Assembly: GCA_013360295.1 (NCBI GenBank) | Contig: JABWCL010000025.1 | Span: 1 to 64,000 of the forward strand | Reading direction: 5' to 3' | Length of the DNA: 64,000 nt | Origin: Ignavibacteriaceae bacterium | GTDB taxonomy: Bacteria > Bacteroidota > Ignavibacteria > Ignavibacteriales > Ignavibacteriaceae | Part shown: positions 12,764 through 41,803 of the stretch, piece after piece | Numbering within the stretch: the stretch's first letter is position 1 | Layout of the letters: each line of letters starts with the position of its first letter | The notes under the pieces: generated by a model | Databases searched by the model: none | Seen by the model: the letters and a program-made list of their open reading frames with translations, nothing else | Told to the model about the DNA's origin: nothing | Program-made: the position numbers and the translations under genes

Positions 12764-12953
12764 GAGGAGACTCACACTGAACATTATGCCGGAATAACGC
12801 TGCATGACGGAGGGAAAAAGGCAGACAGGTTAGAGAAGCTGCCTGGCAAACAAAACTTAAATAAACTATTAACACTGCTGCTCTGAGCAGTTCCATAAGA
12901 CGATCAGGTGTGACCGCGCCCCGCTGAGGAAAACTGCACCTGTTTGATTTTTA
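12764..12953 (+). pseudogene. Relic copy of the 3' end of the redox-operon gene at 4565-5266 plus its hairpin
   Basis: Bases 12764-12886 translate to 40 residues plus TGA and align without gaps to the last 40 codons of the gene at 4565-5266 (shared ETHTEHYAG, then LHDGG versus MHDGG, then LEKL). The alignment continues through the stop into the downstream hairpin (CAGGTG/CACCTG at 12905-12910 and 12937-12942) and T-rich tail, at a constant offset of 7620 bases. Homology ends abruptly at 12764; no start, no H-like domain and no cysteine motif remain. It is therefore the surviving end of a deleted or partly duplicated second copy. The many third-position and compensating changes show that it is old. 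Confidence 0.85.
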
Positions 12954-13441
12954 ATCAGTACGATATGATGGGAACACGGAGGAAAGAGATCAGCCCGTAT
13001 CAGAGTAATTTCCACATCAAATCCATCCCGCTCACCCTTAATGATTTCGATGTAATTTTCCACCCTCACTGCAACTTGTTAGGTTATGGGGACGTTAAAA
13101 ATCAATTCATCACTACGAATCCCCCATCGAATTGTTTCGATTTATTTCAATTTCCCGGTATTTATTTTTGTGCTTTCCGTCACAATTGTTGGTGGGAATC
13201 TTTTGTCTAAAAAATTTCAGTGTTTTTAATTGGAATTAAATGTGGTTTTATTTAATTTCACATCGTGTTACGAATAATTCCCTCCTTTAACTTTAGATAA
13301 GATCAACATAACAACTGATATAGAAACAGTCTGAAAGCTGTTTTTATATAGGTCAAAATTGCATAGTTCTTTCAAACCACTGAAATTTATTGAAATTTTT
13401 AGCGGTTGACAGATGATGTTTTTTGAGCTTGAACATTAGAA

Positions 13442-13461
13442 TGTCTGATTCCTATCAGACA
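13442..13461 (+). other. 8-bp hairpin with 4-base loop upstream of giant gene
   Basis: TGTCTGAT-TCCT-ATCAGACA is a perfect hairpin about 220 bases upstream of the giant secreted protein. No T-run follows, so it could be an operator or a leader RNA structure. Role unknown. Confidence 0.35.
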
Positions 13462-13551
13462 GCCGGGACAAAATTGCTGGCACCATAGTCGCTCCGGTAA
13501 TTACTGAGTTTCAGGCTAAAATTTATCCTGAATGGAAAAGGAGGTGTTTTA

Positions 13552-13644
13552 GTGCTCAAGCCCAACTTTAAACAATTTGATCTCATTGATACTGTATTTC
13601 ACAAGCCCCCTTTGAAGGCAGTATTGAATTATTTATGGCAGTGA
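13552..13644 (+). CDS. Possible 30-residue small ORF with strong ribosome site
   Basis: A GTG at 13552 follows AAAAGGAGGTG at 13536-13546, a near-perfect Shine-Dalgarno, and opens a frame of 30 codons ending TGA at 13642-13644, 38 bases before the giant gene. Strong Shine-Dalgarno sequences are unusual among the neighbouring genes, which makes this notable. The peptide (starting LKPNFKQFDL) has no family I know. It could be a leader peptide, a small protein, or chance. Confidence 0.3.
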   Translation: MLKPNFKQFDLIDTVFHKPPLKAVLNYLWQ

Positions 13645-13682
13645 CTTTATAATAGGTATTAAATCATTAACAAAGGCAAAAT

Positions 13683-16600: not shown

Positions 16601-19600
16601 AAAGACAGCAGCAGGCCTTATACGGATTCAGGCTACAAACAATCCTGATCTGATAGCTTTATCCCCCGGTGTTTTTAGGATTATCTCAAGCCGGCCTGAG
16701 ATCACACCTGCAGCCGCTGGTGAGCCGGTTTATGATCCTCCATCGGGTTCAAACGCGACAGTTTTCCGATTCAAGGTGATGTATCAAAGCGATGAGAACA
16801 AACCTCCTCGTATCGGTTTTCCCCGTGTTGTACTTGATTTTGACGGAGACGGAGTTATTGAATACGGTGAAGGTGAAGGCGCTTTCACGATGATGGAAGC
16901 GAACAGACTTGACCTCAATTATGCAGATGGTAAAATATTTATTCTTGAAAAAAATCTACCGGTTGGTAATAATCACAGACTCAAATTTGAATCGGTTGAT
17001 ACTGATGGGGACACCTCGTCCGGTTCTCAGCAGTTATTAAACTATTTTGCAGGTCCAAATGTTAGAACCTTGCCGAATATTTCTCTTTTCTCTGATGATC
17101 TCATCATAACCTCGTCAAACAACACTGTTGGTATGCCAACGAAAATCAAATTTTTTTGGAGGGTTTCTCCTTCGAATCAACCAATAACCGAGGATGTTAA
17201 ATTTGGTTTATATGTTGATGGTAATGTTGTTGATGAAGTAGTCTTTGCAGGGTTATATTCTCATACAGGGGAACATACATTCACATACACACCTCACTCA
17301 GCAGGGGTTAGGATCATCACCGTTAAGGCAGATGTCTTAAACGCTGTTGAAGAGTCAGTTGAATGGGATAATGAAGCTGGAACCACGGTTAGTATCGGCC
17401 CCAATCAGGTTAATTTAAATATTACTCAGACCGGCGGAGGCGATCCCGTACCGTTCACGGGGATGCCAAATACCGGATTCGATATAACCGGCACCTCTTA
17501 TTATCTTGGAATTTCCAACAAGCTTGAGTTGAATGACACATTAAAAGTAAAGGGTGGAAGGGTCACGGTTGCGGTGAATGGCAAAAATTATGTTGGGTAT
17601 ACAAATTCTGACGGTAAATATTCCGTGAACATTCCGGGACTGCCATCGGGTAGTTATCCGTATTCAGCAGTGATCTCTGACAATTTTCTGAGCGGCACAG
17701 TATTCGGTGACGTAGACATACTTAATCCGAATGCCGGAGGAGGCAATAATCAGTTTAAAGATGTCTCTCTCTCTGATCTGAATTTCTCCAAAACAAATCC
17801 AGTATCGGGAGAGAATACGATAATATCGGTCAAAACATCGAACACGGGCACCGAAACTTTGTCTAACGTACCGGTCTTTCTTTATGTGAATAATATCCTT
17901 AGGGACAGCTCGGTTACCGGAGTTCTGCAGCAGGGAGATCAGCAGTTATTAACTTTTACCCTTAACGTGCAAACGACCGGTGCAAATGAAATAAGAATAG
18001 TTGCAGATCCCCGGAATCAAATTGAAGAAATAAATAAAAACAACAATTTCCGGAACGGAATAATTACTGTTGAGCCGCTTTTACCTGATTTGGTTGTTTC
18101 GGATGTCAGTTACCCGGCGATACTGAAAATCAACCGGCCATTTATAATAAGAGCGAGAATTAAAAACACTGGCAACAGTCCTGTATCTACTCCGTTCTCT
18201 GTGATTTTTCAGGCAGGCGGTCAGAATTTTGGGCCTATTCTAATCCAGCAGCTTGGGGCAGGCATTGAAACTGAAGTTGAACAATCTGTGACTTTAAGCC
18301 AGCAGGGGAATATTGTTATCAGCGCTTTGGTTGATTCTGAGAATCAGATAAGTGAGGATAGCGAATTAAATAACAGGTTCGCAAGAATTGCAGAAATCAA
18401 ACCTTTGCTGCCGAATCTGGTCTTGAAACCAGGCAGTCTAACCCTGGTGCCCCCAAGGCCAGGGGCCGCAGACAGCATAAAATTCAGTGTCTCCGTAAAA
18501 AATGAGGGAGAAGTCAACTCACAGACTTCTGAACTCGAATTCAGTGTTAACGGCACTCAATTCAAAACAGTAATCCAGGTTTCTGGACTTAATGCCGGTG
18601 AGGAAACGGTAATTCAGTCAGTTACCCCTTTCATTAGCGGAATGCAGAGTGCGTTCACAGCATTAGCGAGGATAGATTTCCTTACGAATCAGGCGGAACT
18701 CTCGAAATCCGACAATATTGCCTCAACTGAATTCGTTACGGGTTCAGGCTCTGATCTTGCCATTGATTCATCCGGGAGCATCGTACCGGATATACTTTTT
18801 GTTAAGGCAGGTCAACAGGTAAATCTGAAAGCGCTTATCCGCAATGCCGGAGAAGTTGTAACCTCAGGAAAAGTAGAATTCTATTCTATTAATTCAGTGA
18901 TGCAAAGAAGCCTGATTAAGACTGTGCCAATACAACTTAATCCGGGTGAAAGTAATTTCACTGGCATAATTCCTTTTATCGTTCCCGCGTTACCTGTAAC
19001 TGTAAGCGCTAAAATAGTGAATACCCAACCGCAGGACGTTAACCTGACGAATAATGAAAATGTCAGAAGCTTCGGGGATATCCCGCCAGTGATAGCGGGG
19101 CTTGATTCTGTGAGTTTCAAAGAAGATTCAATGTTGGTATTGAATTTAGATAATTATGTTACTGATCCGGGAGATTCGCTAAATACACTGACCTGGAGTG
19201 TTGTTTCAAACGGAAATATCCTTGTTAGTCTCGATCAACAAACAAGGTTACTTGAACTTAAAGCGCCGCCCGATTACTACGGAACCGACAGCATCAGGAT
19301 ATCAGTCTCGGAAATCGGCGGTTCGGTAATTAGCAAATCAGTCTTTGTGAAAGTGGACCCGGTCATTGACTACCCCGGAGTACCGCAACCTTTATTCCCG
19401 TTGAGCGGAACCAGAGGCTTAATTTCGCCTGTTACCCTGACGTGGAATAAGAGTATAAAAACTGAATCATACCGTCTGCAACTCTCCTCAGACAGCCTGT
19501 TCAGTACGTTGATTATCAATGATTCGCTGATTACTGATACATCAAAGATAATCACTTCTGTTTCCGGATTTACACAGTATTACTGGAGGGTAAAGGGAAT

Positions 19601-22151
19601 TAACCAGGAGGCAGTTGGAGACTGGAGCGCCGTTTTTAATTTCAAGACTCTCGGCAATCCTTATGCAAGTAATCCTGTCACACCGGTAAATAATTCGGTA
19701 AATCAGCCAATCAATACGCTTACATTTATGTGGACTAAAGCCAAAGAGCGGATTGAAACTATCCAGAGGTATCAGTACCAATTGGCAAATGATACTTCAT
19801 TTGCTTCAATTGTTGTGAATGATACCACACTGACTGATACTATGAGAACAGTAAGTAACCTCGATTACCTCACCAATTACCACTGGAGAGTTCGAGCTTC
19901 GAACGAAACTGGCTGGGGTGACTGGAGTGAAAGCTGGTCATTTACGACGATCATAGAAAAGCCGGCTTTACCTCTTCTCGCTCAGCCGGGTAATAATTCC
20001 ACTATGCAGATTCAGCCGGTTACGGTTAGCTGGAATAAGTCTGCCAGATCTGAAAAATATACTTTGCAGGTGAGTGATAACCCTGCATTTGCAACACTTA
20101 TTGTTAACGATACAACACTGGGTTCAGGCGATACATCAAGAGCGCTGCCCCAACTGGTTTCTCCTCAGACATATCACTGGAGAGTGAAAGCACGAAATAC
20201 AGGAGGGGAAAGTGATTACTCTGCCGTATGGAATTTCCGCACACTAGGATTGCCTCTTACGGTAACTCCTGTTCAGCCGGCAGAAAACAGTGTAAATCAA
20301 CCTACAGCCAGCCTCAGCTTCATTTGGAGAAAGGCAGGAGAGCAGACACTTATAACATCGAAGGGTGCGGGAAGCAAAAAACAATCCAGAGGCGACGGGG
20401 AAGAAGAAACATCAGTCAGTAGAAACAGCAGCAGCGCTAAAGGTGCAAGAATGAATGGCTCATCCGGATCGGTTACTGAAGGAGGAGAGAATATTTTAAG
20501 GTACTGGCTGCAGGTGAGTAATGATACTTCAGGAAGTAATTTCTTTTTTAACGACAGCACACTTACTGACACAGTTAAGAATCTTTCCGGTCTTGCATAC
20601 TCCACAGATTACTACTGGAGGGTGAAAGCGCAGAACGAAACAGGCTGGGGAGGCTACTCCCAGTGGATAAAGTTCAGGACGATCGTTCAGAAACCCGGTG
20701 TTGTGGTTCTCGCAGCTCCTCAGAACAATGCTCAGGGGCTTGTTAATCCGGTTACATCCACCTGGAACAAAAGCCTCAGGGCCGAGGGATACAAACTACA
20801 GGTTTCTGCGGATTCTCTCTTCGCAACTACTCTGGTGAATGACAGTACAATTACTGATACAAGTAAAATACTTCCGGCTTTAGCAAACTTCACTCGATAC
20901 TATTGGAGAGTGAAGGCGTACAATGTTGGCGGAGAAGGTGAATGGAGCAGTGAATTCAGTTTCAGGACGCTTGGCAATCCTTATGCAAGCAATCTTGTTT
21001 CACCCGCGAATCAGTCGGTCAATCAGCCTGTAAACGGACTTGTCTTTAAGTGGAACAAACCGGCAGAGAGAAGAGAGGATTTACTCGGCTATCACTATCA
21101 GTTGTCCTCTGATTCGCTCTTTGCCGCGACGGTTATTAACGATACAACACTTGCAGATACAATAGTAACAGTTAATGACTTAACCAACCTTACGACCTAC
21201 TACTGGAGAGTAAGAGCAAAGAATCAGGCGGGCTGGGGTGACTGGAGTGATAAATGGTCCTTAAAAACAATTGTATCCAGCCCGGGTCAGGTGACTCTTG
21301 TTTCTCCCGCGAACAACTCCACCGATCAGGCTCTAAGGCCTCAGTTCGGATGGAACAGAATACAGGTTGCCGAAAGATATCGCTTTGAACTTGCCGCGGA
21401 TCAGAACTTCCAAAATATTGTGGTTCTTGACTCGGTGATGTCGGATACTGCTAGGAGCCTTACCTCAGACCTGAACTGGAACACAAAATATTATTGGAGA
21501 GTGAAGGCTGTAAATGTAGGGGGCGCTGGGAGTTACTCGGCTATATTTAATTTCACCACAAAGAAACAGCCCGTGGCTGCTCCTACAAATCTGCAGGCAA
21601 TTTGGCTGGCGAGCGGAAGAGTAAGACTTCACTGGAATGATAACTCCTCAAATGAGGCTGGTTTTATCCTTAGCCGTAAGACAGGTGATACTTTGTCCGC
21701 AAATCAGTTTGTTATTCTGACTACGCTTGACTCAGGCGCTACCGAAGCTTTTGATTCAACGGCACTTCAGACAACACTCTACACTTATATGATAACCGCA
21801 TATACTATTGATTCGATGTACGCTAACAGTAATATGGCAGTGATTCAGACGGGAACGGGAGTGAATGATGAACTCGCGGGCAGACCAACAGAATATCGGT
21901 TGCACCAGAACTATCCCAATCCGTTTAATCCAGGAACAACAATCCAGTATCAGATACCTGAAGCTGGATTTGTTACCCTGAAAGTATATGACCTGTTAGG
22001 GAACGAAGTGGCGGAACTAGTGAACGCTGAAAAGGAACCTGGTTACTATGAAGTGAAGTTCAACGCGGATAAACTTGCCAGCGGAGTATATCTTTACAAA
22101 CTGCAGGCAGGCAGTTTCTCTCAGACGAAAAAATTCTCACTGCTTAAATGA
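13683..22151 (+). CDS. Giant T9SS-secreted FN3/CARDB adhesin-like protein (2822 aa)
   Basis: A signal peptide (about 1-31, ending SSSLFPQ) precedes a beta-sandwich-like N-terminal domain (to about 205). Seven fibronectin-III-like domains follow (about 206-915), each with the strand YYWRVKAxN and ending WSxxFxFxT. Then come mixed beta domains with a Ca-type DFDGDGVIEYGEGEG loop, a carboxypeptidase-regulatory-like domain (about 1250-1350), four CARDB-like domains (about 1354-1800, typified by KNTGN/KNEGE), a cadherin-like domain (about 1800-1894), eight more FN3-like domains (about 1895-2732), and a type-A sorting domain (about 2733-2822) with QNYPNPFNPGTT and SGVYLYKLQAG. The sorting domain implies export by T9SS and surface attachment. 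Likely role: adhesion or surface scaffold. One FN3 unit (residues about 2220-2270) carries a polar, low-complexity insertion. It shares its FN3 pattern closely with the protein at 31089-36464. Confidence 0.9.
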   Translation: MINSGKELRIKFILPFQIVCFIIFLSSSLFPQYQVIGINSSGSNVISPEGPVKSDHNYSIFETIYGSGEIGREGTIERIAFGRNSYNGDHNYDNIKVYLKQVNAGSYPDNQPLDTSGFTLVYDGPYSSTEGWNWIPFTKHFYYNAQQNLGVLIIKSDSIGHGEANWYVNPSSTSKYSRSNHSNVSIPTSFAYTRNKRPSVLMLFRSSPTPPVLVSPLNNSVGLWNPISVKWEKSGGASRYWLQVSSDSLFLSQSTDIMVVNDSMVTDTTFLLPPETFYDGTKKIFWRVKAVNSLGATEWSPTYRFTIVGNPSVPEIARLVSPYNNSKGLVNPVDLKWRKSKRAEKYIIEIARDSLFSNIHKVDSVLAADTTYSINLPDYGITYYWRVKAKNISGEASAEVFKFKMLGNSYPVTLISPANASTQQPPSGLLLKWSKPVERIESILGYQLQVSVDSSFGVIDINDSTLTDTTKLVNGLDFPRKHFWRVRAKNLAGWGDWSAVWSFSTKIAIPHPPVLLRPQNYSTELWRPIDVYWRKISGANRYWIQVSNDSLFRNQYPLTVIVDDSMFTDTVKRMPDDLFWASGKTYYWRVKAMNELGSGEWSQVFRFTTRTQPAAPQLISPPNGVMGQPTSGVTLLWNSVIAGGTGYIVNYELEVATTPNFTWGTFVFQQFVSGTIRGLNNLAPQKKYYWRVRAWDEITNGIWSEVRSFTTMPTSLPPAPVPAWPQSNVNEMPLTVSLIWRSVPADNYQFQVATDSTFSSSIRNDSTIVDTTFLLTNLSGYTKYYWRVRATNLLGTSNWSQVFNFKTIGVPYAGTLVLPANNSVNVSPRNLIFKWTKPRERIEAIQRYQLQISYDSLFTTAVFDNSSIPDTMRTVNTILYGMNYFWRVRALNGAGWGDWSAYSRFSTVENIKITAPVGGDTLLSEKNYEIKWLPSIADTVRIEHSLDGGLTWQIISANYPAQSGKFIWRVPTVKTAAGLIRIQATNNPDLIALSPGVFRIISSRPEITPAAAGEPVYDPPSGSNATVFRFKVMYQSDENKPPRIGFPRVVLDFDGDGVIEYGEGEGAFTMMEANRLDLNYADGKIFILEKNLPVGNNHRLKFESVDTDGDTSSGSQQLLNYFAGPNVRTLPNISLFSDDLIITSSNNTVGMPTKIKFFWRVSPSNQPITEDVKFGLYVDGNVVDEVVFAGLYSHTGEHTFTYTPHSAGVRIITVKADVLNAVEESVEWDNEAGTTVSIGPNQVNLNITQTGGGDPVPFTGMPNTGFDITGTSYYLGISNKLELNDTLKVKGGRVTVAVNGKNYVGYTNSDGKYSVNIPGLPSGSYPYSAVISDNFLSGTVFGDVDILNPNAGGGNNQFKDVSLSDLNFSKTNPVSGENTIISVKTSNTGTETLSNVPVFLYVNNILRDSSVTGVLQQGDQQLLTFTLNVQTTGANEIRIVADPRNQIEEINKNNNFRNGIITVEPLLPDLVVSDVSYPAILKINRPFIIRARIKNTGNSPVSTPFSVIFQAGGQNFGPILIQQLGAGIETEVEQSVTLSQQGNIVISALVDSENQISEDSELNNRFARIAEIKPLLPNLVLKPGSLTLVPPRPGAADSIKFSVSVKNEGEVNSQTSELEFSVNGTQFKTVIQVSGLNAGEETVIQSVTPFISGMQSAFTALARIDFLTNQAELSKSDNIASTEFVTGSGSDLAIDSSGSIVPDILFVKAGQQVNLKALIRNAGEVVTSGKVEFYSINSVMQRSLIKTVPIQLNPGESNFTGIIPFIVPALPVTVSAKIVNTQPQDVNLTNNENVRSFGDIPPVIAGLDSVSFKEDSMLVLNLDNYVTDPGDSLNTLTWSVVSNGNILVSLDQQTRLLELKAPPDYYGTDSIRISVSEIGGSVISKSVFVKVDPVIDYPGVPQPLFPLSGTRGLISPVTLTWNKSIKTESYRLQLSSDSLFSTLIINDSLITDTSKIITSVSGFTQYYWRVKGINQEAVGDWSAVFNFKTLGNPYASNPVTPVNNSVNQPINTLTFMWTKAKERIETIQRYQYQLANDTSFASIVVNDTTLTDTMRTVSNLDYLTNYHWRVRASNETGWGDWSESWSFTTIIEKPALPLLAQPGNNSTMQIQPVTVSWNKSARSEKYTLQVSDNPAFATLIVNDTTLGSGDTSRALPQLVSPQTYHWRVKARNTGGESDYSAVWNFRTLGLPLTVTPVQPAENSVNQPTASLSFIWRKAGEQTLITSKGAGSKKQSRGDGEEETSVSRNSSSAKGARMNGSSGSVTEGGENILRYWLQVSNDTSGSNFFFNDSTLTDTVKNLSGLAYSTDYYWRVKAQNETGWGGYSQWIKFRTIVQKPGVVVLAAPQNNAQGLVNPVTSTWNKSLRAEGYKLQVSADSLFATTLVNDSTITDTSKILPALANFTRYYWRVKAYNVGGEGEWSSEFSFRTLGNPYASNLVSPANQSVNQPVNGLVFKWNKPAERREDLLGYHYQLSSDSLFAATVINDTTLADTIVTVNDLTNLTTYYWRVRAKNQAGWGDWSDKWSLKTIVSSPGQVTLVSPANNSTDQALRPQFGWNRIQVAERYRFELAADQNFQNIVVLDSVMSDTARSLTSDLNWNTKYYWRVKAVNVGGAGSYSAIFNFTTKKQPVAAPTNLQAIWLASGRVRLHWNDNSSNEAGFILSRKTGDTLSANQFVILTTLDSGATEAFDSTALQTTLYTYMITAYTIDSMYANSNMAVIQTGTGVNDELAGRPTEYRLHQNYPNPFNPGTTIQYQIPEAGFVTLKVYDLLGNEVAELVNAEKEPGYYEVKFNADKLASGVYLYKLQAGSFSQTKKFSLLK

Positions 22152-31088: not shown

Positions 31089-34000
31089 CTATTTAAGCAG
31101 AATCAGTTTTTTAGTTTGAACAAAAGCTTCCGCTCTGATCCTGTATAAATAAATTCCTGACGGAACGGTCGCTCCGTAATGATCCTTACCATCCCACCCG
31201 GCATTATAGCTGCCCGCGCTCAGCCTGCGAGAAACAAGAGTTTTTACCCGTCTTCCGGAAATATCAAAAACGGAAAGATCAACCATCGCCTCCCGGGGAA
31301 GCCCGAATTCAATCATCGTACTAGGGTTAAATGGGTTTGGATAATTTATGCCAAGATAGAAATCCGTGGGTATATTTTCGCTGCTGAATTCCTTGATTGA
31401 CGTAAGCGTGCGTACTACCGCGTAATTGCTAACTGCAGATACCGTATCGGAATTGTATGCCAAAACAAGATAGCTATAAAGAGTGGAGTCAGTTACATGT
31501 GTATCATAATAAACAGCAGCATTTTGCGCAACTGTATCTATATACTCCAACTGATTCACGCTCGTACTGTCCCCTTCTTTCCTCAAAATTATAAATCCAA
31601 GTTCATTATTCGAGTTATCGTTCCACGTAAGTTTTACCTCCCTGGTTGCCGCTGCGGAAGCAGTAAGGTTTGAAGGAGCCGCGATTGACTTTATTTCTGT
31701 TTTGAACCGCCACGTGTCAGAAAACGCACTATTTCCCGCGATATTAATACTCTTTACGCGCCAGAAATAAGTGGTCTTATGCTGCAGCGTATCCGCAAGA
31801 TAAGACGTATCAGTCAGAGTGGAATCGTTTATGACGAATGAACTGAAAATCGAATCAGCAGACAACTGTAAATGATATTTTTCCGTGTAAGCTGTCCTAT
31901 TCCAGATTAACAGCGGGGTTAAGGAAACACCTGTTGTATTGTTAACCGGATAACTTAATACAGGAACCGTAGGAACCGGAACAATGGTTCTGAAAGTAAA
32001 CCAACCGCTAAAGGATCCCCAACCGGCTTCATTACCGGCACATACACGCCAATAATAAGTTTTGTCGTAAAGCAACCCTGTAACTTGCCTTAAAGTATCA
32101 GTCAGAGCCGAATCAGAAACAACCGTGGCCCCCGACGTATCCATTGTAAGCACAAACCAGTACCGAATATTGCTTTTCTGATCATAAGCGCGTGTCCAGT
32201 TAAATAGTATATTCACTGACTGATTAACACTTCCATTCGGGGGATATAGGAGAGAGACGGTAGTCGGCACTCCGAGAGTCCTGAAATTCCAGGTACCGGA
32301 CACATTACTTACACCGCCCTGATTATAAGCTGATACCCTCCAGTAGTACTGAGTATAAGATGAGAGAGCGGGTAATACTCTGAATGTATCTGTAACAGCC
32401 GAATCAGCGAACAGAATCGTGTTAAATGTCTGTGAGCCGCTAACCTCAAGAATATAACCGGCCGCGCGGGGAGAAGCATACCACCTCAAAATTACCGGCT
32501 GAGAAACCTTTACACTGTTATTAACCGGAGAAGCAAGTATTGGTGCCGCCGGCTTCTCGATTATTGTAGAAAATCTCCATAGTTCCGACCAGTCTCCCCA
32601 ACCCGTTTCATTCAGAGCTCGCACACGCCAGAAATACCCCATACCGTAGCGCAGGTTATTTACCTGCGCTGAAGTATCTGTTAAGGTTGAATCATTTGTG
32701 TTTAATACAGCAAACAATGAATCCTCAGCCAACTGAAACTGATACTTGAGTATAGTTTCAATCCTTTCGGTAGCTTTTCGCCACTTAAAGATGATATTGT
32801 TCACCGGAAGATTCGCGGACTGATTAACCGGCAAAACCAGACTGACTGGATATGCGGAGCCAAGTGTTTTAAAATTCCAGATTTCACTCCACGTGCTTGA
32901 ACCACCTGTGTTATACGCCATCACTCTCCAATAGTGAGCTGTATAATTCGCTAATGAAGGAAGCAGTTTTAATGTATCTGTAAGCAGTGTATCTGAGTAG
33001 AGCACTGTAATGAATTCCGGACTTAAAGAGATCTGCAGTTTATACTTCTCTGCCCGCAAAGGCTTATTCCACCTAACCGTTATGGGCTGCAGCAGTCCGT
33101 TGCTATTGTTTGCCGGACCTGCAAGCACCGGAATCGTTGGTCTTTCAATTATTGTGGTGAAACTCCATACCTGGCTCCAGTCTCCCCACCCTGTTTCATT
33201 GCCTGCGCGGACACGCCAGAAGTATTTTGTGAGATAACTTAACCCGATTATCGACTTTGTTGTATCGGTCAGTGTGCTGTCATTGACTAAGAGAACGCCG
33301 AACAGAGAATCAGTTGATAACTGAAAATGATAATCAGTTATTGACTCAATCCTTTCCGTGGGTTTCTGCCATTTAAATGCAAGATCAGTAAGATTATTTA
33401 CGCTCTCGTTTGCCGGTTGTATAAGAGTAACACCATACGGACTTCCGATTGTCTTGAAATTGAAAACAACACTCCACCCGCTCTCACCGCCGATATTGAT
33501 TGCCTTTACTCTCCAGTAGTATTTAGTGTAGTCTGAAAGCGCGGGTAACTGCTTCAGAGTATCCGTCAGATCGGGAAATGTATTCGTAACCGATGCAAAG
33601 GCAGAATCGGTTGCGATTTCAAGCGTGTATTCCTCCGCCCTTGCCGACTTATTCCATTTCAATATAATTGGCTGTATTAATCCAACGCTGTTACTCGCGG
33701 GACTTGCCAATAACGGTGCGACGGGTTTCTCAATAATCGTTTTCAGGGTCCAGACTTGAGACCAATTCCCCCAACCTGTTTCATTAGAAGCCCGGACGCG
33801 CCAGTAATACCCAGTCCCGTAGCGCAGGTTAATTACCTGCACTGAAGTATCTGTTAAAGTTGAATCATTTGTGTTTAATACAACGAACAATGAATCCTCA
33901 GCCAACTGAAACTGATACTTGAGTATCGTTTCAATCCGTTCAGTCGCTTTTCTCCACTTAAAGGTTATACCGTTCACCGGAAGATTTTCGGACTGATTAA

Positions 34001-36464
34001 CCGGTGAAACTAAAGTGACGGGATATGCAGAGCCAAGCGTTTTGAAAGTCCATACATCGCTCCACGCACTCTCGCCTCCTGAGTTGATAGCTTTTATTCG
34101 CCAATAGTATTGGGTATAGAAACGCAAGTTGGTAACTGGAGCTACGGAATCTGTTAATAGTGAGTCTGCAAACGCTAATGAGGAAAAATTCTGATATTCG
34201 GAAACCTGAAGAAAATATCTTTCCGCTCGGGGTGATTTATACCATTTAACTGTAGCAGGGGGAATAACTCCATTTACATTATTAGCTGGGAATGCAGGTA
34301 CCGGAGCCTCAGGTTTTTGAATTATGGTTGTAAACTTCCAAATATCACTCCATTCACCGGCGCCGCCCTCATTCTCTGCCCGGACACGCCAGTAATAGTC
34401 TATCAGACATGATAGCTGTGGTGATGTGTAATTAGTATCGCTTAAAATTGTATCGGCTATTAATGTGTTGAAAGTCTGCACGGTTGATAACTGGAGCCGG
34501 TATTTAGCAGATCCGGCTGAAGTTCCCCACGTAAAAGAGGGAGTGATGCTTTGATTAACATCATTGTTAAGAGGAGCTATCAAAACAGGCTTCGCGGGAA
34601 CCGGATATACTGTTATGCTTCCGTTCTGAACCGCTTTTATGATATTCTGTGACTGAGCATTCGAGATGACGCCGCCGGAAAGCTCAACCGGAAATGTCCC
34701 GGATATATTACCAACCGCAAATTTTAATTCAGCAACTGTGCCGCTGTTTCCCGAAAAAGCCTGCTGCGAAAGTGAAAAAGCAAAAAGCCTGAATGTGTTT
34801 TCTGCGATAGTGCCAACATTCAGTATATGATCTGCCTTACGCGCAGTGAGAACTGCCGAGTTGTTTTTGTATAAAAACCCAGGAGGTAATTTTATGTCTG
34901 TCTGGAAAGCGACAAAACCCTCATAATTATTTATATCAATCTTAACCGTAACAGTATCCCCTGACCGCGTGTTCAGGTTCGGAACAACAATATAATTCGG
35001 AGCATAAGTATTAACGGATAAGTTTACATAAAACGGATCTTCATCGGGATCGTTGCTTCTTAAAATAAGGCGGGCAGCGTGAGTCCCTTTCTGATCTGCA
35101 TGAAAATAAACCTTAAATGATTTACTGCCTCCCTGAGGTATTATAAAAAGCGAGGAGTATTCTACTCGAAAAAGGGGATTTGACGATGTTATCTGATCAA
35201 CGCGGAGTGTATCTGATCCTGTATTGTAAAGAGTATATGTATAACTAAGGGTATCGGGCAGCGATACTTCACCAAGATCGATGTTCTGCTCACCGGAAAT
35301 ATCAGGTGAAACTATTGTGACAGAATTTCCGTAGGAAGCCGAAACCAGATTTGTTGATGCTGCACCGGTTATAAAAACAGAGTCGGGCTGTACATAATAA
35401 TTACCACCTGTGCCGTCAAGAGTTAATCCGATCTTCATCAGTTCACCGAGGGAATCAGCGAAAGTCATGTTCTGAGGAGAGAAAGCGATCACGCGCACTC
35501 TTCCGGGAGAAACTTCATTCACAGAAACAACGTGGTCATTCTTCCTTGATGAAAGTACCGCGCCGCCGCCGGAATACTTTACTACGGACGGAAGCAGAAG
35601 ATCAAACTGAATCCCCGTAAATGGCTCCATATTATTAACCGAAACAGGAAGATCAATTGCATATCCCGATCTTCCCGATGCCGTACCGAAGCGAAGTTCG
35701 TTTACCGCGAACGATGTGCCGCTGACATTTACAGTTACGACAGGTTCATCAGGGTCATTACTCAAAATCGTAACGGTTTCATTATAGGTTCCCTTTTTCA
35801 GCGATTTAAATTCAATATTTACCTGGTGGGTTCCGCCGGGTTGAATGGTCTTCGAGGTATCAGAATTTATAACAAAATATTTATCTGAAGAATAGATTCT
35901 GTTTATCTGGAGCGGGGTCGTTCCGGTGTTTGTGATGGTAAACGAATTAAATCCCGAAGTATACCACGGCACCCGTCCGTAATCTATCTGATTAAAATTC
36001 AGATCAATATCCGGAGAAAAGATGGTAACATTTCCGTTCGCGGAACCTGTAAGTATATTCTGAGACTGCGCATTACTGATAATGGGATTGATCAACAACA
36101 GGGGATATATGCCCGGCTTTTTACCGAGCTTAACTTTGAACGTAACCACAGCGCCGGTATTGCCGGTGAAGGGGGTTTGATTCAATGAGAACGCAATCAG
36201 CCGGAGCACATTTCCTGTAAGTAAACTTGCGCTGACTATATGCCCACTGCTTCTGGAAGTAAGCTGCGCGGTATTAGCGATAAAAGATATTTCGTTCGGA
36301 AGTTGAATATCCGTCTGAACCGCAACGAAGGCATCCGCGTTATTAACGTGTATCTTCACTGTAACGGTGTCACCTGCCAGACCGCTTGTGTCGGGAAGGA
36401 ACATCGTGTTCTGCGCGAGGGCATTAATGGTCAGTGTTAAAACTAATAAAATTATTTTTCTCAT
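31089..36464 (-). CDS. T9SS-secreted protein with three cohesin-like and eleven FN3 domains (1791 aa)
   Basis: Signal peptide 1-17 (ends INALAQ). Three cohesin-like beta-sandwich domains lie at about 19-150, 255-390 and 495-622. The first and third share GDTVTVKI, F(V)AxQTDIxLP, RLIAFSL/RLFAFSL and ISNAQSQNI; the second is more diverged. Between them are two HYDIN/ASPM-like Ig domains with SNDPDEPVV and SNDPDEDPF. Ten alternating FN3-like domains plus one canonical FN3 fill about 625-1690, and the C-terminus is a type-A sorting domain (INYPNPFNPSTM, then VPSGIYLYRI). It lies 62 bp downstream of the single-cohesin gene and two genes from the dockerin protease, and could act as a polyvalent surface scaffold that binds dockerin partners. 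The cohesin call rests on motif pattern; binding is inference. Confidence 0.85.
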   Translation of the reverse strand: MRKIILLVLTLTINALAQNTMFLPDTSGLAGDTVTVKIHVNNADAFVAVQTDIQLPNEISFIANTAQLTSRSSGHIVSASLLTGNVLRLIAFSLNQTPFTGNTGAVVTFKVKLGKKPGIYPLLLINPIISNAQSQNILTGSANGNVTIFSPDIDLNFNQIDYGRVPWYTSGFNSFTITNTGTTPLQINRIYSSDKYFVINSDTSKTIQPGGTHQVNIEFKSLKKGTYNETVTILSNDPDEPVVTVNVSGTSFAVNELRFGTASGRSGYAIDLPVSVNNMEPFTGIQFDLLLPSVVKYSGGGAVLSSRKNDHVVSVNEVSPGRVRVIAFSPQNMTFADSLGELMKIGLTLDGTGGNYYVQPDSVFITGAASTNLVSASYGNSVTIVSPDISGEQNIDLGEVSLPDTLSYTYTLYNTGSDTLRVDQITSSNPLFRVEYSSLFIIPQGGSKSFKVYFHADQKGTHAARLILRSNDPDEDPFYVNLSVNTYAPNYIVVPNLNTRSGDTVTVKIDINNYEGFVAFQTDIKLPPGFLYKNNSAVLTARKADHILNVGTIAENTFRLFAFSLSQQAFSGNSGTVAELKFAVGNISGTFPVELSGGVISNAQSQNIIKAVQNGSITVYPVPAKPVLIAPLNNDVNQSITPSFTWGTSAGSAKYRLQLSTVQTFNTLIADTILSDTNYTSPQLSCLIDYYWRVRAENEGGAGEWSDIWKFTTIIQKPEAPVPAFPANNVNGVIPPATVKWYKSPRAERYFLQVSEYQNFSSLAFADSLLTDSVAPVTNLRFYTQYYWRIKAINSGGESAWSDVWTFKTLGSAYPVTLVSPVNQSENLPVNGITFKWRKATERIETILKYQFQLAEDSLFVVLNTNDSTLTDTSVQVINLRYGTGYYWRVRASNETGWGNWSQVWTLKTIIEKPVAPLLASPASNSVGLIQPIILKWNKSARAEEYTLEIATDSAFASVTNTFPDLTDTLKQLPALSDYTKYYWRVKAINIGGESGWSVVFNFKTIGSPYGVTLIQPANESVNNLTDLAFKWQKPTERIESITDYHFQLSTDSLFGVLLVNDSTLTDTTKSIIGLSYLTKYFWRVRAGNETGWGDWSQVWSFTTIIERPTIPVLAGPANNSNGLLQPITVRWNKPLRAEKYKLQISLSPEFITVLYSDTLLTDTLKLLPSLANYTAHYWRVMAYNTGGSSTWSEIWNFKTLGSAYPVSLVLPVNQSANLPVNNIIFKWRKATERIETILKYQFQLAEDSLFAVLNTNDSTLTDTSAQVNNLRYGMGYFWRVRALNETGWGDWSELWRFSTIIEKPAAPILASPVNNSVKVSQPVILRWYASPRAAGYILEVSGSQTFNTILFADSAVTDTFRVLPALSSYTQYYWRVSAYNQGGVSNVSGTWNFRTLGVPTTVSLLYPPNGSVNQSVNILFNWTRAYDQKSNIRYWFVLTMDTSGATVVSDSALTDTLRQVTGLLYDKTYYWRVCAGNEAGWGSFSGWFTFRTIVPVPTVPVLSYPVNNTTGVSLTPLLIWNRTAYTEKYHLQLSADSIFSSFVINDSTLTDTSYLADTLQHKTTYFWRVKSINIAGNSAFSDTWRFKTEIKSIAAPSNLTASAAATREVKLTWNDNSNNELGFIILRKEGDSTSVNQLEYIDTVAQNAAVYYDTHVTDSTLYSYLVLAYNSDTVSAVSNYAVVRTLTSIKEFSSENIPTDFYLGINYPNPFNPSTMIEFGLPREAMVDLSVFDISGRRVKTLVSRRLSAGSYNAGWDGKDHYGATVPSGIYLYRIRAEAFVQTKKLILLK

Positions 36465-36526
36465 TTCAGCAATTCATCAATTTGTTTTTAAATGAGAAAC
36501 AATAACAAATAAAAGGCATCATACAG

Positions 36527-37570
36527 TTATTCATACGATATTGTTTTTACCGCATCTATAAAGCGCGTGTTACGAAGAATAAAAAGGTATATGCCTGCCG
36601 GTAATTTGTTCCCGGAATCGTCTCTTCTGTTCCATTTATAAATGTTATATCCGCGGGAAATATTCTGCAATTTTACGCTCTTCACTTCTTCACCGCTGAT
36701 ATTTGTAATTACCAGATTAACAGGATCAGTATGATCCGAATAAAATTTAATGGTCGTTTCAGAGGTAAAGGGATTAGGATGGTTTTGAAACAGGGCTAAA
36801 CCCTTCTCTGAGAAAGTCATACTTATCTCCTTCTCTCCGAGCAATGTCCTTGATCCCTTCGCATCTTCTTCCCACAGACGGTAGAGAATAGCGCCGGATA
36901 CTCCGCTTGCATCATCTGTTAAGCTGTATGACCGGGGGATGGTTGAAGTGCCGGATGCGTCCACGGCGAAAGAGCGGCACATTTCCGCGCTTTCGGTTAT
37001 GCGTTCGATATGGAAACGCAGCGCGTTTTCTTCGGTGGATGTTTCCCAGGTTAGGAGAATCTGATTATTCTCAGATTGTTCCGCGCTGAATGAAATCAAT
37101 TCAACTTTAACCACGCTGTCTATGATTGTTATGTATCCGTTTGACGATCCGGTGAGTATGTTCTGCGAATTAGCATTACTTATTACAGGACTGACAATCT
37201 CCATAGTGTATGTGCCTGTCTGGTTTCCCGCAAGGACACGAAACCTGGCGACCGCGCCGCTGTCGCCGGAAAATGTATTCTGATTCAGTGAAAAAGCAAT
37301 GAGCCTGACTGCATTTGGTGCTATCACCTGATAAGTGAATGCGTGGCCATTGTTTCTTTCTGTCAGCACGCCGGATCCTGCCACAGGTGTGAGCGCCGCG
37401 GGGAACTGAATATCTGTCTGGAAGGCAACAAACGGCTGTGAGTTTGTTATTTTCAACTCAACCGTGACCGTATCACCCCTGAATACAGTCGCATTACTCA
37501 GAGTCATAATATTCTGTCCGCTAACCACCAGAGAACAGAGCAGTAAAAATAAGAGCGTTTTTCTTTTCAT
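36527..37570 (-). CDS. T9SS-secreted single-cohesin protein
   Basis: A 347-residue protein: signal peptide 1-18 (ends LVVSGQ), one cohesin-like domain (about 20-150; GDTVTVELKI, FVAFQTDIQFP, VRLIAFSLNQ, ISNANSQNILTGS), an FN3-like module (about 155-250; LLTWETSTEENALRFHIER) and a type-A sorting domain (about 258-347; FQNHPNPFTSETTIKF, then PAGIYLFIL). Its ATG directly abuts the stop of the dockerin protease, so the two are translationally coupled and probably made in fixed ratio. The cohesin domain is clearly paralogous to domains 1 and 3 of the 1791-residue protein. The likely role is to anchor or present the protease at the cell surface. Confidence 0.85.
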   Translation of the reverse strand: MKRKTLLFLLLCSLVVSGQNIMTLSNATVFRGDTVTVELKITNSQPFVAFQTDIQFPAALTPVAGSGVLTERNNGHAFTYQVIAPNAVRLIAFSLNQNTFSGDSGAVARFRVLAGNQTGTYTMEIVSPVISNANSQNILTGSSNGYITIIDSVVKVELISFSAEQSENNQILLTWETSTEENALRFHIERITESAEMCRSFAVDASGTSTIPRSYSLTDDASGVSGAILYRLWEEDAKGSRTLLGEKEISMTFSEKGLALFQNHPNPFTSETTIKFYSDHTDPVNLVITNISGEEVKSVKLQNISRGYNIYKWNRRDDSGNKLPAGIYLFILRNTRFIDAVKTISYE

Positions 37571-40500
37571 TTATCTCACGAGAACCATTTTCTTCTGCGA
37601 GATAAAATTTCCGGCCTTAAGCTGATAGATATACACCCCGCTTGATACTGGCTGTCTGTTCAGGTTCACTGAATGCCAGCGCAGTTCATAGTATCCGGCT
37701 TTCTGAAAGTCACTCTTTTGTTCCCATATCTTCTCACCCATTATATTATATATAGATAACTCAACCCCTGCGTCTTCCGGTATACCATAACGGATAACTG
37801 TCTCGGGATTAAACGGATTCGGATAATTCTGATAGAGCACGTATTCAGTCGGTATGATGAATCCGTCATTAGAGAATTGAACATTAATCTGCTCGCCGCG
37901 CCTGTTTCCGGCAGTGACGGTCTCAAGTTTCGTTAAATGACCTTTGCTGATCCGGAAGAGTAAATCTTTCTCATCAGACTTTATAGTATTTCCATAAAAA
38001 CTATAGAAAATAATATTAATTGTATCTCCGGTTATACTGTACGCCATTTCCATTCCACTGGCAAGCGGACCAGCAATTATATTCGCGTCTTTTATGTCCT
38101 TGCCGGTGAGTCTGAACTGTAAACCTGCGATCGAGCTTCCGCCCGCGAGGTATGCGCCCTTTGCGTCAAATGTGAATACCGGGGCGCCCTCGCCTGATTC
38201 CTTATTAATGTTGCCGCTGCCCATAATAATATTTACGGTACCGACAATATCCAGCACATTCACAAGGTTATCCTGATTAACATCAGCAGCCTCAAAAATA
38301 AATGGCTGCGGGTTTTGATTCAGCAAATAACTGACCATCGTTGTAATGTCGAGAACGTTAACCGTAAGGTCACCGTTTGCGTCGCCGCGTGAGGCGGTAA
38401 GGGGTATGCTGCTCACGATCCGCGATGAATCTGATTCGCTGAAATCGGTACGGACTACTTTATAATAGTAATAGTATTTTTTATTCGGGATAACTTCAAA
38501 GTCGGTATATAGGGTATCGTTAATTAGCGTATTATTGATAAGAACCGGATCCGTAAATGTAGTGTCAGTTAAATGATCAAAACGGTAAATATTGTATCCT
38601 AAAAGATCTGTGAGTTCGGGGGGCGTGCTCCATTCGAGATAGACTTTACCGAGCCCTGCTGTTGCCTGAAATTCCGCCGACGCGGAACCTGCCGCGTCAA
38701 TAAGGAATTCGAAACGCATATCTTCATCAGGTATATCCCACCCGTCAGTATCTTTTCCGCCCGTTACACGTATCCGGTTAATTCCGTCTCCTGTCTGGAT
38801 TTTAACGGTTTTATAAACAGTATAGATTCTCCGGTTCGCTGACCAAAAGCCGTCTTCGTTAACAAAGTTGGTGAGGAACGGATAACGAACGCCAAAGCTT
38901 ACTGTCGGCGTGAAAGATGTATCCATCGCTTTGCTGTAGTAAATATCAAATCTGTGTTTACCCACGCCAACAGGATCGGCGGCATCGTCAAACGGATCTT
39001 TTCCGTTAACGTGGATTTTCCAAAGAACACCGTGCGCGGAATCGGTCGGCGCCTTTAAGAACGGGCTGAAGCGAATGCGCGGACGAAGCGGGTCTTCCTT
39101 GAAATCATAAACCATGTTTTCGATTTTCAAAGAATCTGATGTTCCCCAGTACTGGTGCTGCATATATTGGAAGTCCGCGGTGCCGTTAGTATTGAATTTT
39201 TCAAGATATATTTTCGCATCCTCATAAAACGTGCCGTTCCATACCTGCTTATATTTGTAATATTCGCTTATCCAGTTATTCTGCATATTCGGATCAGTAT
39301 GGTCGAAATATTCGTTAGTAGGCATCCTCAGGTTAATCATATTGTTGTAGTAATAATTACCTAAACTTGCCGAGTATAACCCTCCGCTCGGAGCGTAGAA
39401 AGAACCGGTAGTCGTTGGTGAGATAAAGTTATTCCTTTTCACATACGAACTTGACCATAATCCGTCATAGAATGAGCGGATTGTATTATCCACTACGCTG
39501 TCCGCGTAACCGATGGCAATATCATCGGAGATGAATTTGCAGTTGAAAATACTCGCGGGATTCTGCCCGCCTCCCGCGAGTGGCAGACGGAAATTCTCGA
39601 AGACGCAATAAGAAAATCTGTTTTTAATATTGTATTCAAAGTTTCTGAAAACAAAGATTTCGCTTACGGGCCCGGAAGAACCGGGGGGAATGTAAGCTTT
39701 AAAAACGATCATACTGTCGGGTGTGCCATCAGCGATAAGTTCACCGCTTATGGGTATACTTTTACCAGGATAGAAAGTGATCTGTGTGCCGGGTTTTATT
39801 ATTAACCGCCCGCCAACGCCAATCTTAAAGCTCTGATTTACGATGTAATTTCTGTTCGGGTAAAGGATCCTTGTTGAGTCGAGAACATCATACAGCTCTT
39901 CACCGTTTTCGGGTGTAATTACAAGTGTTCTTCTGGTTGTATCTGCGGCTCCATTCCACCACAGTTTTAAATTAAAAACTATATCTCTGCCGTGCGGCGC
40001 GTTTTCGCTGACTTTAATGAGGAGCGGGATCGCGGCGTCACGGGTAGCGTAAGAGCTCATACTGCCGACGGATATTTTATCCCTCAGTATCTTTGCCACT
40101 AAGGTATCTTCGAACTCCCCTAATTGAATTGACATAAAGGTACTGTCACACGCTCCTCCGGTGTTTCTGAGCCTGTACCATAGCTCAATCGTTTCTCCGG
40201 CGTCAACGCGTCCGTCTATATCGTTGCCCGGGATTGAGTCTGAGATCGTTAATCCCACAATATTCACCTGCGGCGGAGGAAGATAATTTAGCGAGTTATA
40301 AAGTTTTATATTTTCCTCGCTTGAAGCAATGAGTTTTGCCCACATCAGTTCAGGATTTTCCCCGGGTTTTAATTGCCGGTAAAGAGATATGCCTCCCGAA
40401 ACAAGCGGTGCTGCCATTGAAGTTCCGTTAAGAGCGCGGTAACCTCCATTAGGGACAGCACTTATAATTAATGCTCCGGGCGCCTTTAGCTCATAATTAC

Positions 40501-41803
40501 TAAGTTCTTTATACGCACTGTAAACCGGCCCGTCAGTATCAACGTTGCTGAAGTCCGCACGAAGCCCGCTTTCGTCTGTTGCTTCAATCCCCAAAACAAA
40601 TGAATAAGCAGCCGGAAAAAATCTGGCACAACCGCTCCCAGGACCAATACATCTGGAATCATTCCCCGCGGCAGCCACCAGAATACTTGTACCATACGCA
40701 TTTGCCAGGGCGGCTTCAAGGGTGAGCGACGCAGTATAACTGCCGAAGCTCATATTTATAATATCCGCGCCCATCCCGTGAGCATAAATTATTCCCCGGG
40801 TAATGGTTGCAAGATCGCCTCTGCCGCTGCTCTGAAAAACTTTAAGCGGCATTACCTTCGCGTGCCAATTGACGCCTGCAACACCAATTCCGTTATTGCT
40901 TTCCGCGGCGGTAATTCCCGCAACGTGTGTGCCGTGGCTATTATCATCCCTCGGATCATTGTCATTGTTGATCCAGTCCCACCCCCGCACGTCATCCACA
41001 TAACCGTTGTTGTCATCATCTATCCCGTTATCTGGGATTTCTCCGGGATTTGTCCAGATTTTGTTTTTAAGATCCGGGTGCAACCAGTCAACTCCTGTAT
41101 CGAGTATCGCGATTATCTGTGTGGTATCTCCCTTTGTGCTGTTCCATACCGCGTCAACCTGCGCAGCGGGTATTCCCCACTGCTGAGAATAAAGAGGATC
41201 GTTTGGGACTACCGATGTTATGCGGTTCGGCGATTTATTATCAGGGAATAGTTCGTGGTGTTCGCTAAGCCATTTGATCATTTCCGGTTCGGTTAACTCG
41301 GGCGAGAGAGGCATACTTTCAACTATTGATAAAATATAATTTGGCTCGGCATATTCTACGTTCACATCTTGTTTCAGCGCTTCGATCACTTCAAATATAT
41401 TGGTGTGTGAGTCACCGGTACTGATTTTGTAAATATTGTGGAGCGAGGGGATTTCAACCTTCTGTCCGCTGAATGACTTAAAATATTCGGGTTTGGCAGG
41501 TTTCGTTTCGCCCGCAAATACCCGTGCGGCTGATACTATTTTATACTGTCTGAAAATAATATCAGTTGAAGGATATCCGGTGGTAATAAACCCGGAAGTC
41601 TTGCCGAGATTTATTGCCGCTTCATTTCTGAACTTTACTATGATATCCCCCGGGACGAAATCGAATTTGGACGTTCGTTCGTCAATCCTGATGACATCAT
41701 ACTGGTTACTATTCGGATTATCCGGCGGGCAGTCAGGACAAGGCGTCTGGGCATTTAATAAAATGCTATAGAAAAATATAAACGAAAGGAAGGATAGTCT
41801 CAT
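37571..41803 (-). CDS. T9SS-secreted subtilisin-like protease with type-I dockerin
   Basis: A 1410-residue S8 serine protease. Signal peptide 1-19 (ends LLNAQ) and a propeptide (about 45-160) precede the catalytic domain with a complete triad: D235 (ILDTGVD), H290 (SHGTHVAG) and S462 (NGTSMAAP), plus oxyanion Asn in AAAGNDS. A CARDB-like module, a parallel-beta-helix-like stretch and an FN3-like module follow. Residues about 1140-1197 form a type-I dockerin with two complete 12-residue calcium loops (DANGDLTVNVLD and DVNQDNLVNVLD). Next is a half-cohesin-like segment (about 1207-1310) and a sorting domain (YQNYPNPFNPET, SGVYIYQL). An in-frame TTG lies seven codons upstream, but GTGGAG precedes the ATG at 41803, which is chosen. 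It is the first gene of the cluster. Confidence 0.92.
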   Translation of the reverse strand: MRLSFLSFIFFYSILLNAQTPCPDCPPDNPNSNQYDVIRIDERTSKFDFVPGDIIVKFRNEAAINLGKTSGFITTGYPSTDIIFRQYKIVSAARVFAGETKPAKPEYFKSFSGQKVEIPSLHNIYKISTGDSHTNIFEVIEALKQDVNVEYAEPNYILSIVESMPLSPELTEPEMIKWLSEHHELFPDNKSPNRITSVVPNDPLYSQQWGIPAAQVDAVWNSTKGDTTQIIAILDTGVDWLHPDLKNKIWTNPGEIPDNGIDDDNNGYVDDVRGWDWINNDNDPRDDNSHGTHVAGITAAESNNGIGVAGVNWHAKVMPLKVFQSSGRGDLATITRGIIYAHGMGADIINMSFGSYTASLTLEAALANAYGTSILVAAAGNDSRCIGPGSGCARFFPAAYSFVLGIEATDESGLRADFSNVDTDGPVYSAYKELSNYELKAPGALIISAVPNGGYRALNGTSMAAPLVSGGISLYRQLKPGENPELMWAKLIASSEENIKLYNSLNYLPPPQVNIVGLTISDSIPGNDIDGRVDAGETIELWYRLRNTGGACDSTFMSIQLGEFEDTLVAKILRDKISVGSMSSYATRDAAIPLLIKVSENAPHGRDIVFNLKLWWNGAADTTRRTLVITPENGEELYDVLDSTRILYPNRNYIVNQSFKIGVGGRLIIKPGTQITFYPGKSIPISGELIADGTPDSMIVFKAYIPPGSSGPVSEIFVFRNFEYNIKNRFSYCVFENFRLPLAGGGQNPASIFNCKFISDDIAIGYADSVVDNTIRSFYDGLWSSSYVKRNNFISPTTTGSFYAPSGGLYSASLGNYYYNNMINLRMPTNEYFDHTDPNMQNNWISEYYKYKQVWNGTFYEDAKIYLEKFNTNGTADFQYMQHQYWGTSDSLKIENMVYDFKEDPLRPRIRFSPFLKAPTDSAHGVLWKIHVNGKDPFDDAADPVGVGKHRFDIYYSKAMDTSFTPTVSFGVRYPFLTNFVNEDGFWSANRRIYTVYKTVKIQTGDGINRIRVTGGKDTDGWDIPDEDMRFEFLIDAAGSASAEFQATAGLGKVYLEWSTPPELTDLLGYNIYRFDHLTDTTFTDPVLINNTLINDTLYTDFEVIPNKKYYYYYKVVRTDFSESDSSRIVSSIPLTASRGDANGDLTVNVLDITTMVSYLLNQNPQPFIFEAADVNQDNLVNVLDIVGTVNIIMGSGNINKESGEGAPVFTFDAKGAYLAGGSSIAGLQFRLTGKDIKDANIIAGPLASGMEMAYSITGDTINIIFYSFYGNTIKSDEKDLLFRISKGHLTKLETVTAGNRRGEQINVQFSNDGFIIPTEYVLYQNYPNPFNPETVIRYGIPEDAGVELSIYNIMGEKIWEQKSDFQKAGYYELRWHSVNLNRQPVSSGVYIYQLKAGNFISQKKMVLVR
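38213..38386 (-). other. Dockerin type-I domain within the protease
   Basis: Two tandem EF-hand-like loops of the form DxNxDxxxNVLD, about 33 residues apart, each with Asp at positions 1, 5 and 12 and Asn at position 3, followed by helices (ITTMVSYLL and IVGTVNIIM). This is the standard dockerin pattern. It is listed separately because it is the expected partner of the cohesin domains in the two following genes. Confidence 0.9.

Follow-up and report, generated by a model that had tools for sequence, protein, structure and literature searches.

A cohesin-dockerin protease cassette with type IX sorting tails in an Ignavibacteriaceae bacterium and distant lineages

Gene organization and domain content

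Here we describe three consecutive genes of an Ignavibacteriaceae bacterium (contig JABWCL010000025.1), located on the minus strand of a 64,000-nucleotide stretch that was analysed as a whole and is hereafter named the window. These genes encode a predicted secreted subtilase with a dockerin, a cohesin fold in cis and a sorting tail of the type IX secretion system (T9SS) (P0001; 37571..41803; 1410 amino acids, aa); a small protein with a signal peptide recognized by eye, one cohesin at approximately aa 22-150 and a borderline T9SS tail (P0002; 36527..37570; 347 aa); and a large protein with three cohesins, two HYDIN/ASH immunoglobulin (Ig) domains, approximately eleven FN3-like domains and, at aa 1708-1788, a T9SS tail (P0003; 31089..36464; 1791 aa). 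An earlier note, made from the sequence alone, had placed the three genes in this order at 31089-41803, and these coordinates were exact on re-check; the ATG of P0002 indeed lies directly after the TAA of P0001, with zero gap and in the same reading frame, and P0003 starts 62 bases beyond P0002.

The catalytic domain of P0001 was assigned by Pfam as Peptidase_S8 (aa 229-495, 170 bits), with intact catalytic residues Asp235, His290, Ser462 and Asn381, and these four positions are invariant across the 16 long protease copies compared, the window copy included. A conserved segment at aa 1010-1136, FN3-like by eye, precedes the dockerin (38216..38386, minus strand; aa 1140-1196), which was delimited by Pfam, by its motif and by an AlphaFold2 (AF2) model. 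Dockerin_1 (PF00404) matched aa 1140-1186 with 33 bits against a cut-off of 22.9, and the two calcium loops are complete, each displaying V-L at positions 10-11, through which known type-I dockerins recognize their cohesin. The dockerin profile also matched solved dockerins (2y3n_B, E 5e-4), and in the model of aa 1130-1326 (predicted local distance difference test score, pLDDT, 79, with the five models at 69-79; predicted TM-score, pTM, 0.77) the dockerin part aligned with 6kg9 with Z 10.3 and a root-mean-square deviation (rmsd) of 2.2 over 63 residues (VIA-align). P0001 therefore carries a type-I dockerin with two calcium loops, and the subtilisin-like protease with a complete type-I dockerin described by the earlier note is borne out, the dockerin being above its Pfam cut-off.

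Directly C-terminal to the dockerin, at approximately aa 1206-1314 (37862..38188, minus strand; residues 77-185 of the model), P0001 displays a cohesin fold that had been overlooked previously. This fold was undetected by Pfam and by our own cohesin profile, and was found by fold search on the same model, which is of middling confidence: Foldseek returned 2xdh (E 2e-6), and VIA-align aligned it with 2xdh over 104 residues (Z 12.1, rmsd 2.2), tied with other cohesins.

Regarding the partner proteins, Pfam Cohesin matched three stretches of P0003 (38.5 bits, cut-off 24.1), corresponding to cohesins at approximately aa 22-142, 255-380 and 492-615, which were also supported by a profile to which the window contributed no sequence. 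Two HYDIN/ASH Ig domains, missed by the earlier note, separate these three cohesins according to Pfam. The eleven FN3-like domains previously counted agree with ten aromatic-W-R repeat motifs plus one more FN3-like domain seen by eye, and are supported by nine Pfam fn3 stretches. For P0002, Pfam Cohesin reported nothing at E<=1, and a phmmer search of the whole protein against the PDB sequences returned nothing significant (best E 0.21; a cohesin scaffoldin, 0.53); its cohesin was detected by the window-free profile (E 3.6e-11), and the AF2 model of this domain (pLDDT 95.1, pTM 0.88) aligned with solved cohesins (6kge_A, Z 18.7, rmsd 1.5, 129 residues aligned). Hence, the three cohesin-like domains of P0003 hold by Pfam, and the single one of P0002, unreported by Pfam, holds by profile and by fold; the earlier note had regarded a missing cohesin fold as evidence against its proposal, and the P0002 domain is modelled as a cohesin. 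A profile of this cohesin type (hereafter window-type) matched solved cohesins weakly (5n5p_A, E 2e-4; 6kgc_A, 0.018), and a whole-scaffold profile matched mostly HYDIN-type chains. By Pfam, no carbohydrate-binding module (CBM) family was found in P0002 or P0003 at E<=1, and neither glycoside hydrolase (GH) or CBM domains nor M12B, M14 or lamin-tail domains were reported in the three proteins.

The sorting tail model TIGR04183 scored 35.6 bits in P0001 (aa 1327-1407), 36.6 in P0003 and 23.5 in P0002, against a cut-off of 23. In P0002 the Pfam Por_Secre_tail match (17.2) was below its cut-off of 27; thus, of the type-A sorting domains attributed to all three proteins, those of P0001 and P0003 are clear, and that of P0002 is borderline. 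The union of cohesins and dockerin with T9SS tails and a protease was otherwise confirmed. At least 150 T9SS tails (150 out of 301 candidates scored) and 13 PorV-family proteins above cut-off were found in the same genome, which make T9SS export appear ordinary in this bacterium; therefore, these tails are not the mark of a special cluster. One further protein with a T9SS tail, of 2822 aa, is encoded within the window at 13683-22151, on the plus strand, opposite to the cassette.

Conservation of the gene order

To locate the cassette elsewhere, named genomes were scanned with the cohesin-Ig-cohesin core of P0003 and its homologue from genome G002 (query A2), which gave 16 loci. In 13 out of 13 loci with enough upstream sequence, corresponding to 12 contigs since L198 and L200 share one, the three-cohesin gene is preceded on its own strand by a P0001 homologue; L201, L203 and L204 are uninformative in this respect, two Cloacimonadota contigs and a Draconibacterium contig ending before the position of the upstream gene. 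These 13 loci come from metagenome-assembled genome (MAG) records titled Caldithrix sp., Bacteroidales, Bacteroidetes, Prolixibacteraceae and Neomarinimicrobiota, and the long protease copies are 35-45% identical almost end to end. The small one-cohesin gene is found ahead of the scaffold in 6 of the 16 loci (L199, L200, L203, L206, L211 and L212), its place being taken in L210 by a two-cohesin gene. Some clusters hold two to four dockerin protease genes beside cohesin scaffolds (the L198/L200 contig, L210 and L225-L226).

The reverse search (A3) used the aa 1010-1198 region of the protease only, without any cohesin, against 395 genomes of the phylum. Strong matches (E<=1e-82) were obtained in 6 of them, the genome of the window included, and all 8 gene copies concerned are found in clusters with cohesin genes. 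Weak matches (E ~1e-16 to 1e-17) appeared in three genomes: those of G232 and G307 are leucine-rich repeat (LRR) proteins with a similar dockerin, and at the G026 match no dockerin was found. When the scaffold was used as query (A4), 7 of the 395 genomes were recovered, namely the six with the protease and G002 (Fisher p 1.4e-12), where the upstream gene encodes a HYDIN-Ig protein with a dockerin identified by our own profile and not reported by Pfam. The survey of relatives that had been proposed for the gene order thus placed the protease upstream of the scaffold in 13/13 loci and beside cohesin genes in 6/6 phylum genomes, and the cassette recurs as a conserved module across distant lineages.

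An annotation artefact, or chance, was ruled out as the source of the cluster by the window-free profile together with the conserved synteny. A related explanation, that cohesins and dockerins are merely common in the T9SS secretome of the group and became adjacent incidentally, draws on their frequency among 41 genomes (our own and 40 relatives), where Pfam detected dockerins (E<=0.001) in 25 and cohesins (E<=0.01) in 27; the same-strand adjacency, found in every informative locus from the scaffold side and in all six genomes from the protease side, contradicts chance, and we regard this explanation as highly improbable.

Regarding the origin of the cassette, no cohesin or dockerin match was found in G001, the sole congener searched, and the protease and scaffold trees are partly discordant. 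Recent transfer was considered on the basis of composition and gave no signal, as the G+C content of the cassette (0.43-0.46) is inside the range of the 64-kb window. The sporadic distribution (6/395) and the partly discordant trees still allow transfer or partner exchange.

Conservation of the dockerin and of its recognition residues

Segments were compared by pairwise identity in 19 sets with one protease per cluster (171 pairs). The dockerin was the most conserved segment, with a mean identity of 63%, followed by 57% in the catalytic domain, 46, 40 and 34% in scaffold cohesins 2, 1 and 3, respectively, and 24% in the cis cohesin fold, the least conserved segment. At calcium-loop residues D1, N3, D5 and D12, neither loop varies in any of the 19 dockerins. 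At the recognition positions, loop 1 displays V at position 10 in 19/19 and L at position 11 in 17/19, and in loop 2 an L follows a V, I or L at position 10 in 19/19.

These residues were examined in 71 dockerin loci, of which 24 have window-type cohesins (at least 40 bits with the A6 profile; the remaining loci reached 15.7 bits at most). A [VIL][LQ] dyad was present in 23 of these 24 loci, the exception being L204, a short contig where only the scaffold's own dockerin is present; conversely, it was found in 2 of the 47 loci without window-type cohesins (L178 and L180), the dyad being unreadable in another 2. Non-protease proteins carry the dyad in three of the 23 loci, a HYDIN-Ig protein in L194 and LRR proteins in L230 and L231, with window-type cohesins alongside (44-157 bits). 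Therefore, the dyad type of the dockerin goes with the type of the cohesin, even on these three non-protease carriers.

Dockerins and cohesins in the order

An order-level set was assembled with 60 stretches from relatives, surrounding most of the Pfam dockerin and cohesin matches, and two from our own genome (11 places, 5 with dockerin and 6 with cohesin, were left out, as were the stretches L018 and L019), and analysed with dockerin and cohesin profiles seeded with the Pfam matches and then iterated. The profiles mapped 57 dockerin proteins, window included; in the same chain, a cohesin lies on either side of the dockerin in 37 of them, and behind it in 31. Among the 52 dockerin proteins without N-terminal cohesin, a same-strand gene with N-terminal cohesin occurs within two genes downstream in 21 and upstream in 3, and for T9SS dockerin proteins longer than 1300 aa these counts are 13/15 and 1/15, all uncorrected for contig ends. 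The order of a dockerin protein and then a cohesin protein thus recurs in these loci. The heads of such dockerin proteins vary among the 8 scanned (HYDIN-Ig, beta-helix, Ig or cadherin-like, or none recognized), and in L170 and L182 no dockerin was found by our own profile.

In our own genome, two dockerin proteins were above the Pfam cut-off, P0001 and the protein of locus C17 (L016 8873-12043), a single T9SS chain arranged as cohesin-dockerin-cohesin with dyads A-Y/A-L. At locus C43 (L017 795-2639, 2656-5889 and 5910-6731), three adjacent T9SS proteins have cohesin domains, and the first two display, by eye, two separated loops between cohesins resembling a split dockerin. In relatives, the LRR proteins of L230 and L231 combine a near-window-type dockerin (I-L dyad) with a T9SS tail, and the genes that follow encode very long proteins that begin with a window-type cohesin. 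Three-cohesin scaffolds that also bear a dockerin, with A-T or G-T dyad, were observed in L199 (9254-12133), L204 (1-3282) and L206 (4843-7929), the latter locus encoding a further large protein with a dockerin of this other dyad type (8107-14529). Scaffolds bearing a dockerin of another dyad are built as would be expected of an adaptor scaffoldin, to judge by this resemblance.

Discussion

Taken together, these results describe what is probably a surface-exported cohesin-dockerin protease cassette, in which the dockerin docks in trans and the proteases are kept at the cell surface. The indirect evidence from synteny, conservation and the dyad match is best read as docking in trans, which we consider likely because conservation is highest in the dockerin and lowest in the cis fold, and because the dyad goes with the cohesin type; the docking, its stoichiometry and the substrate are what we infer here. 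According to this model, the three proteins would exit through Sec, for which signal peptides were recognized by eye, and then through the type IX system; the subtilase dockerin would plug, with calcium, into the cohesins of P0002 and P0003. P0003 would act as a scaffold whose three sockets are spaced by Ig domains (cohesin-Ig-cohesin-Ig-cohesin) and stand on a long FN3 stalk, with the T9SS tail as anchor, and P0002 would act as a single-socket anchor. The outcome would be several protease copies on the cell surface, most likely degrading extracellular protein, and the presence of the same gene set in distant bacterial groups suggests a protein-degrading complex at this location. The "up to four docking sites" put forward by the earlier note agree with the four trans cohesins; the picture of one enzyme and four sockets is incomplete, however, because the protease itself bears a cohesin fold.

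Several observations weigh against docking in trans or temper its support. Each protein has its own T9SS tail, and docking is thus unneeded for staying on the surface. The dyad association has low independence, as 20 of the 23 dyad loci carry a homologous protease, the pairs L198/L200 and L225/L226 represent one cluster each, and these loci were picked by homology to the cassette; moreover, the L194 dockerin was identified by our own profile and motif and is not reported by Pfam, that of L231 is slightly below the Pfam cut-off (21.8 vs 22.9), and L178 and L180 have a matching dyad without window-type cohesins. Every named locus is a MAG contig whose record title may be wrong, and the tree discordance fits partner exchange and a limited signal as well. 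Furthermore, a mirror-tree test on 16 loci (of the 19, three with partial proteases were dropped) was not specific for the trans cohesins: the dockerin correlated with cohesins 1-3 at r 0.50, 0.41 and 0.44, with the cis fold at 0.47, with the scaffold Ig domains at 0.35 and 0.40, with the catalytic domain at 0.39 and with the T9SS tail at 0.20. When the catalytic domain was controlled for by partial correlation, the values were 0.41, 0.38 and 0.33 for cohesins 1-3, 0.38 for the cis fold, 0.32 and 0.30 for the Ig domains and 0.08 for the T9SS tail.

The correlation with the cis fold, on par with those of the trans cohesins, is also what would be expected if the dockerin bound the adjacent cohesin fold, folding the tail or chaining proteases head to tail, with the trans cohesins serving other partners. 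That domain has a clear cohesin fold by Foldseek and VIA-align, the pTM of the two-domain model is consistent with some packing, and more than half of the mapped dockerin proteins of the order (the 31/57 above) have a cohesin behind the dockerin; nevertheless, the least conserved segment here stands next to the most conserved one, and the protease adjoins trans cohesins in all six phylum genomes that have it, which make intramolecular or head-to-tail binding unlikely. The cis cohesin fold is most likely a stabilising neighbour module of the dockerin rather than its main partner. X modules play such a stabilising part beside some dockerins.

A different role, compatible with docking in trans, is that plug and socket together form a surface layer or stalk for adhesion or matrix formation, and that the protease is an interchangeable passenger, for example one acting in maturation or shedding, instead of an enzyme that degrades nutrients. 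HYDIN-Ig and LRR proteins with same-type dockerins beside same-type cohesins, the adhesin-like FN3 stalk of P0003 and the lack of any substrate-binding module reported there by Pfam point in this direction, whereas the S8 family is the carrier in 20/23 dyad-positive loci, its catalytic residues are invariant in 16/16 long copies, and two or more protease genes occur together in several clusters; we find this role rather doubtful, though less so than binding in cis. Going beyond docking in trans, we tentatively propose, as an idea with somewhat less than even chances, a mobile T9SS-exported cassette spread across several phyla, with a private V-L pair, a three-socket scaffold serving several proteases, a catalytic head exchangeable for LRR or Ig adhesins with retention of the pair, and a cohesin fold that would stabilise, gate or chain the docking.

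The cassette would extend cohesin-dockerin assembly to a compact T9SS-exported protease system in largely uncultured lineages, in which each part seems to have its own anchor. It also makes available for specificity tests about 20 natural sets of dockerins and cohesins, which belong to one subtype and have hydrophobic residues at the recognition positions, and it offers a possible new pair for displaying proteins on Gram-negative surfaces.

Comparison with known systems

The novelty implied by the earlier note was too strong, since proposals in Cloacimonadota (2021; PMC8542988) and Planctomycetes (2019; PMC6461901), both taken here from the portions of text available, precede it. No such system is described in the available portions of PMC8810776, PMC10266427, PMC6851124 and PMC3534657, the last of which states that the cellulase genes of M. 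roseus lack dockerin and scaffoldin domains. Among the literature matches listed, as judged on titles and abstract openings and with subscription papers mostly outside, the cassette itself is undescribed.

Membership in a cellulosome was considered and rejected, as Pfam reported neither GH nor CBM for any of the three proteins and the dockerin carrier is a Peptidase_S8. The cassette shares with the clostridial cellulosome the two-loop dockerin, several cohesins on a non-catalytic protein and the same folds; it differs in having no reported GH or CBM, in the V-L recognition dyad and in its T9SS tails, the clostridial anchoring being by S-layer or sortase. The top structural match of the cis fold, the tied 2xdh, is a non-cellulosomal cohesin of the archaeon Archaeoglobus fulgidus, for which we know of no protease or T9SS context.

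Closer precedents are found among peptidase complexes. In the consulted part of the report on Ca. Stygibacter (Cloacimonadota, 2021), the breakdown of proteinaceous material was proposed for a complex that includes an S8/S53 peptidase bearing a dockerin and a cohesin scaffoldin that ends in a domain for attachment to the cell surface, for which a T9SS review is cited (PMC8542988). Both systems combine a dockerin S8 peptidase with a cohesin scaffoldin whose C-terminal domain is surface-anchoring; as far as that text goes, Stygibacter has one 3755-aa scaffoldin with CBM2/CBM3, plus GH18, GH57 and C25 enzymes (PMC8542988), whereas the cassette consists of three genes with Ig-spaced cohesins and no CBM or GH reported. 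Likewise, the planctosome of Nemodlikiaceae (Planctomycetes, 2019) is a cohesin-dockerin peptidase complex proposed for polypeptide degradation (PMC6461901), a function that is a proposal in both cases; in the passages available, it comprises M12B and M14 peptidases, a lamin-tail anchor and a separate dockerin-cohesin adaptor, and T9SS is not in its model. The cassette is set apart from these precedents by its three-gene build, an Ig-spaced scaffold in which no CBM was reported, the V-L dyad, its distribution and the cohesin fold that its protease carries in cis.

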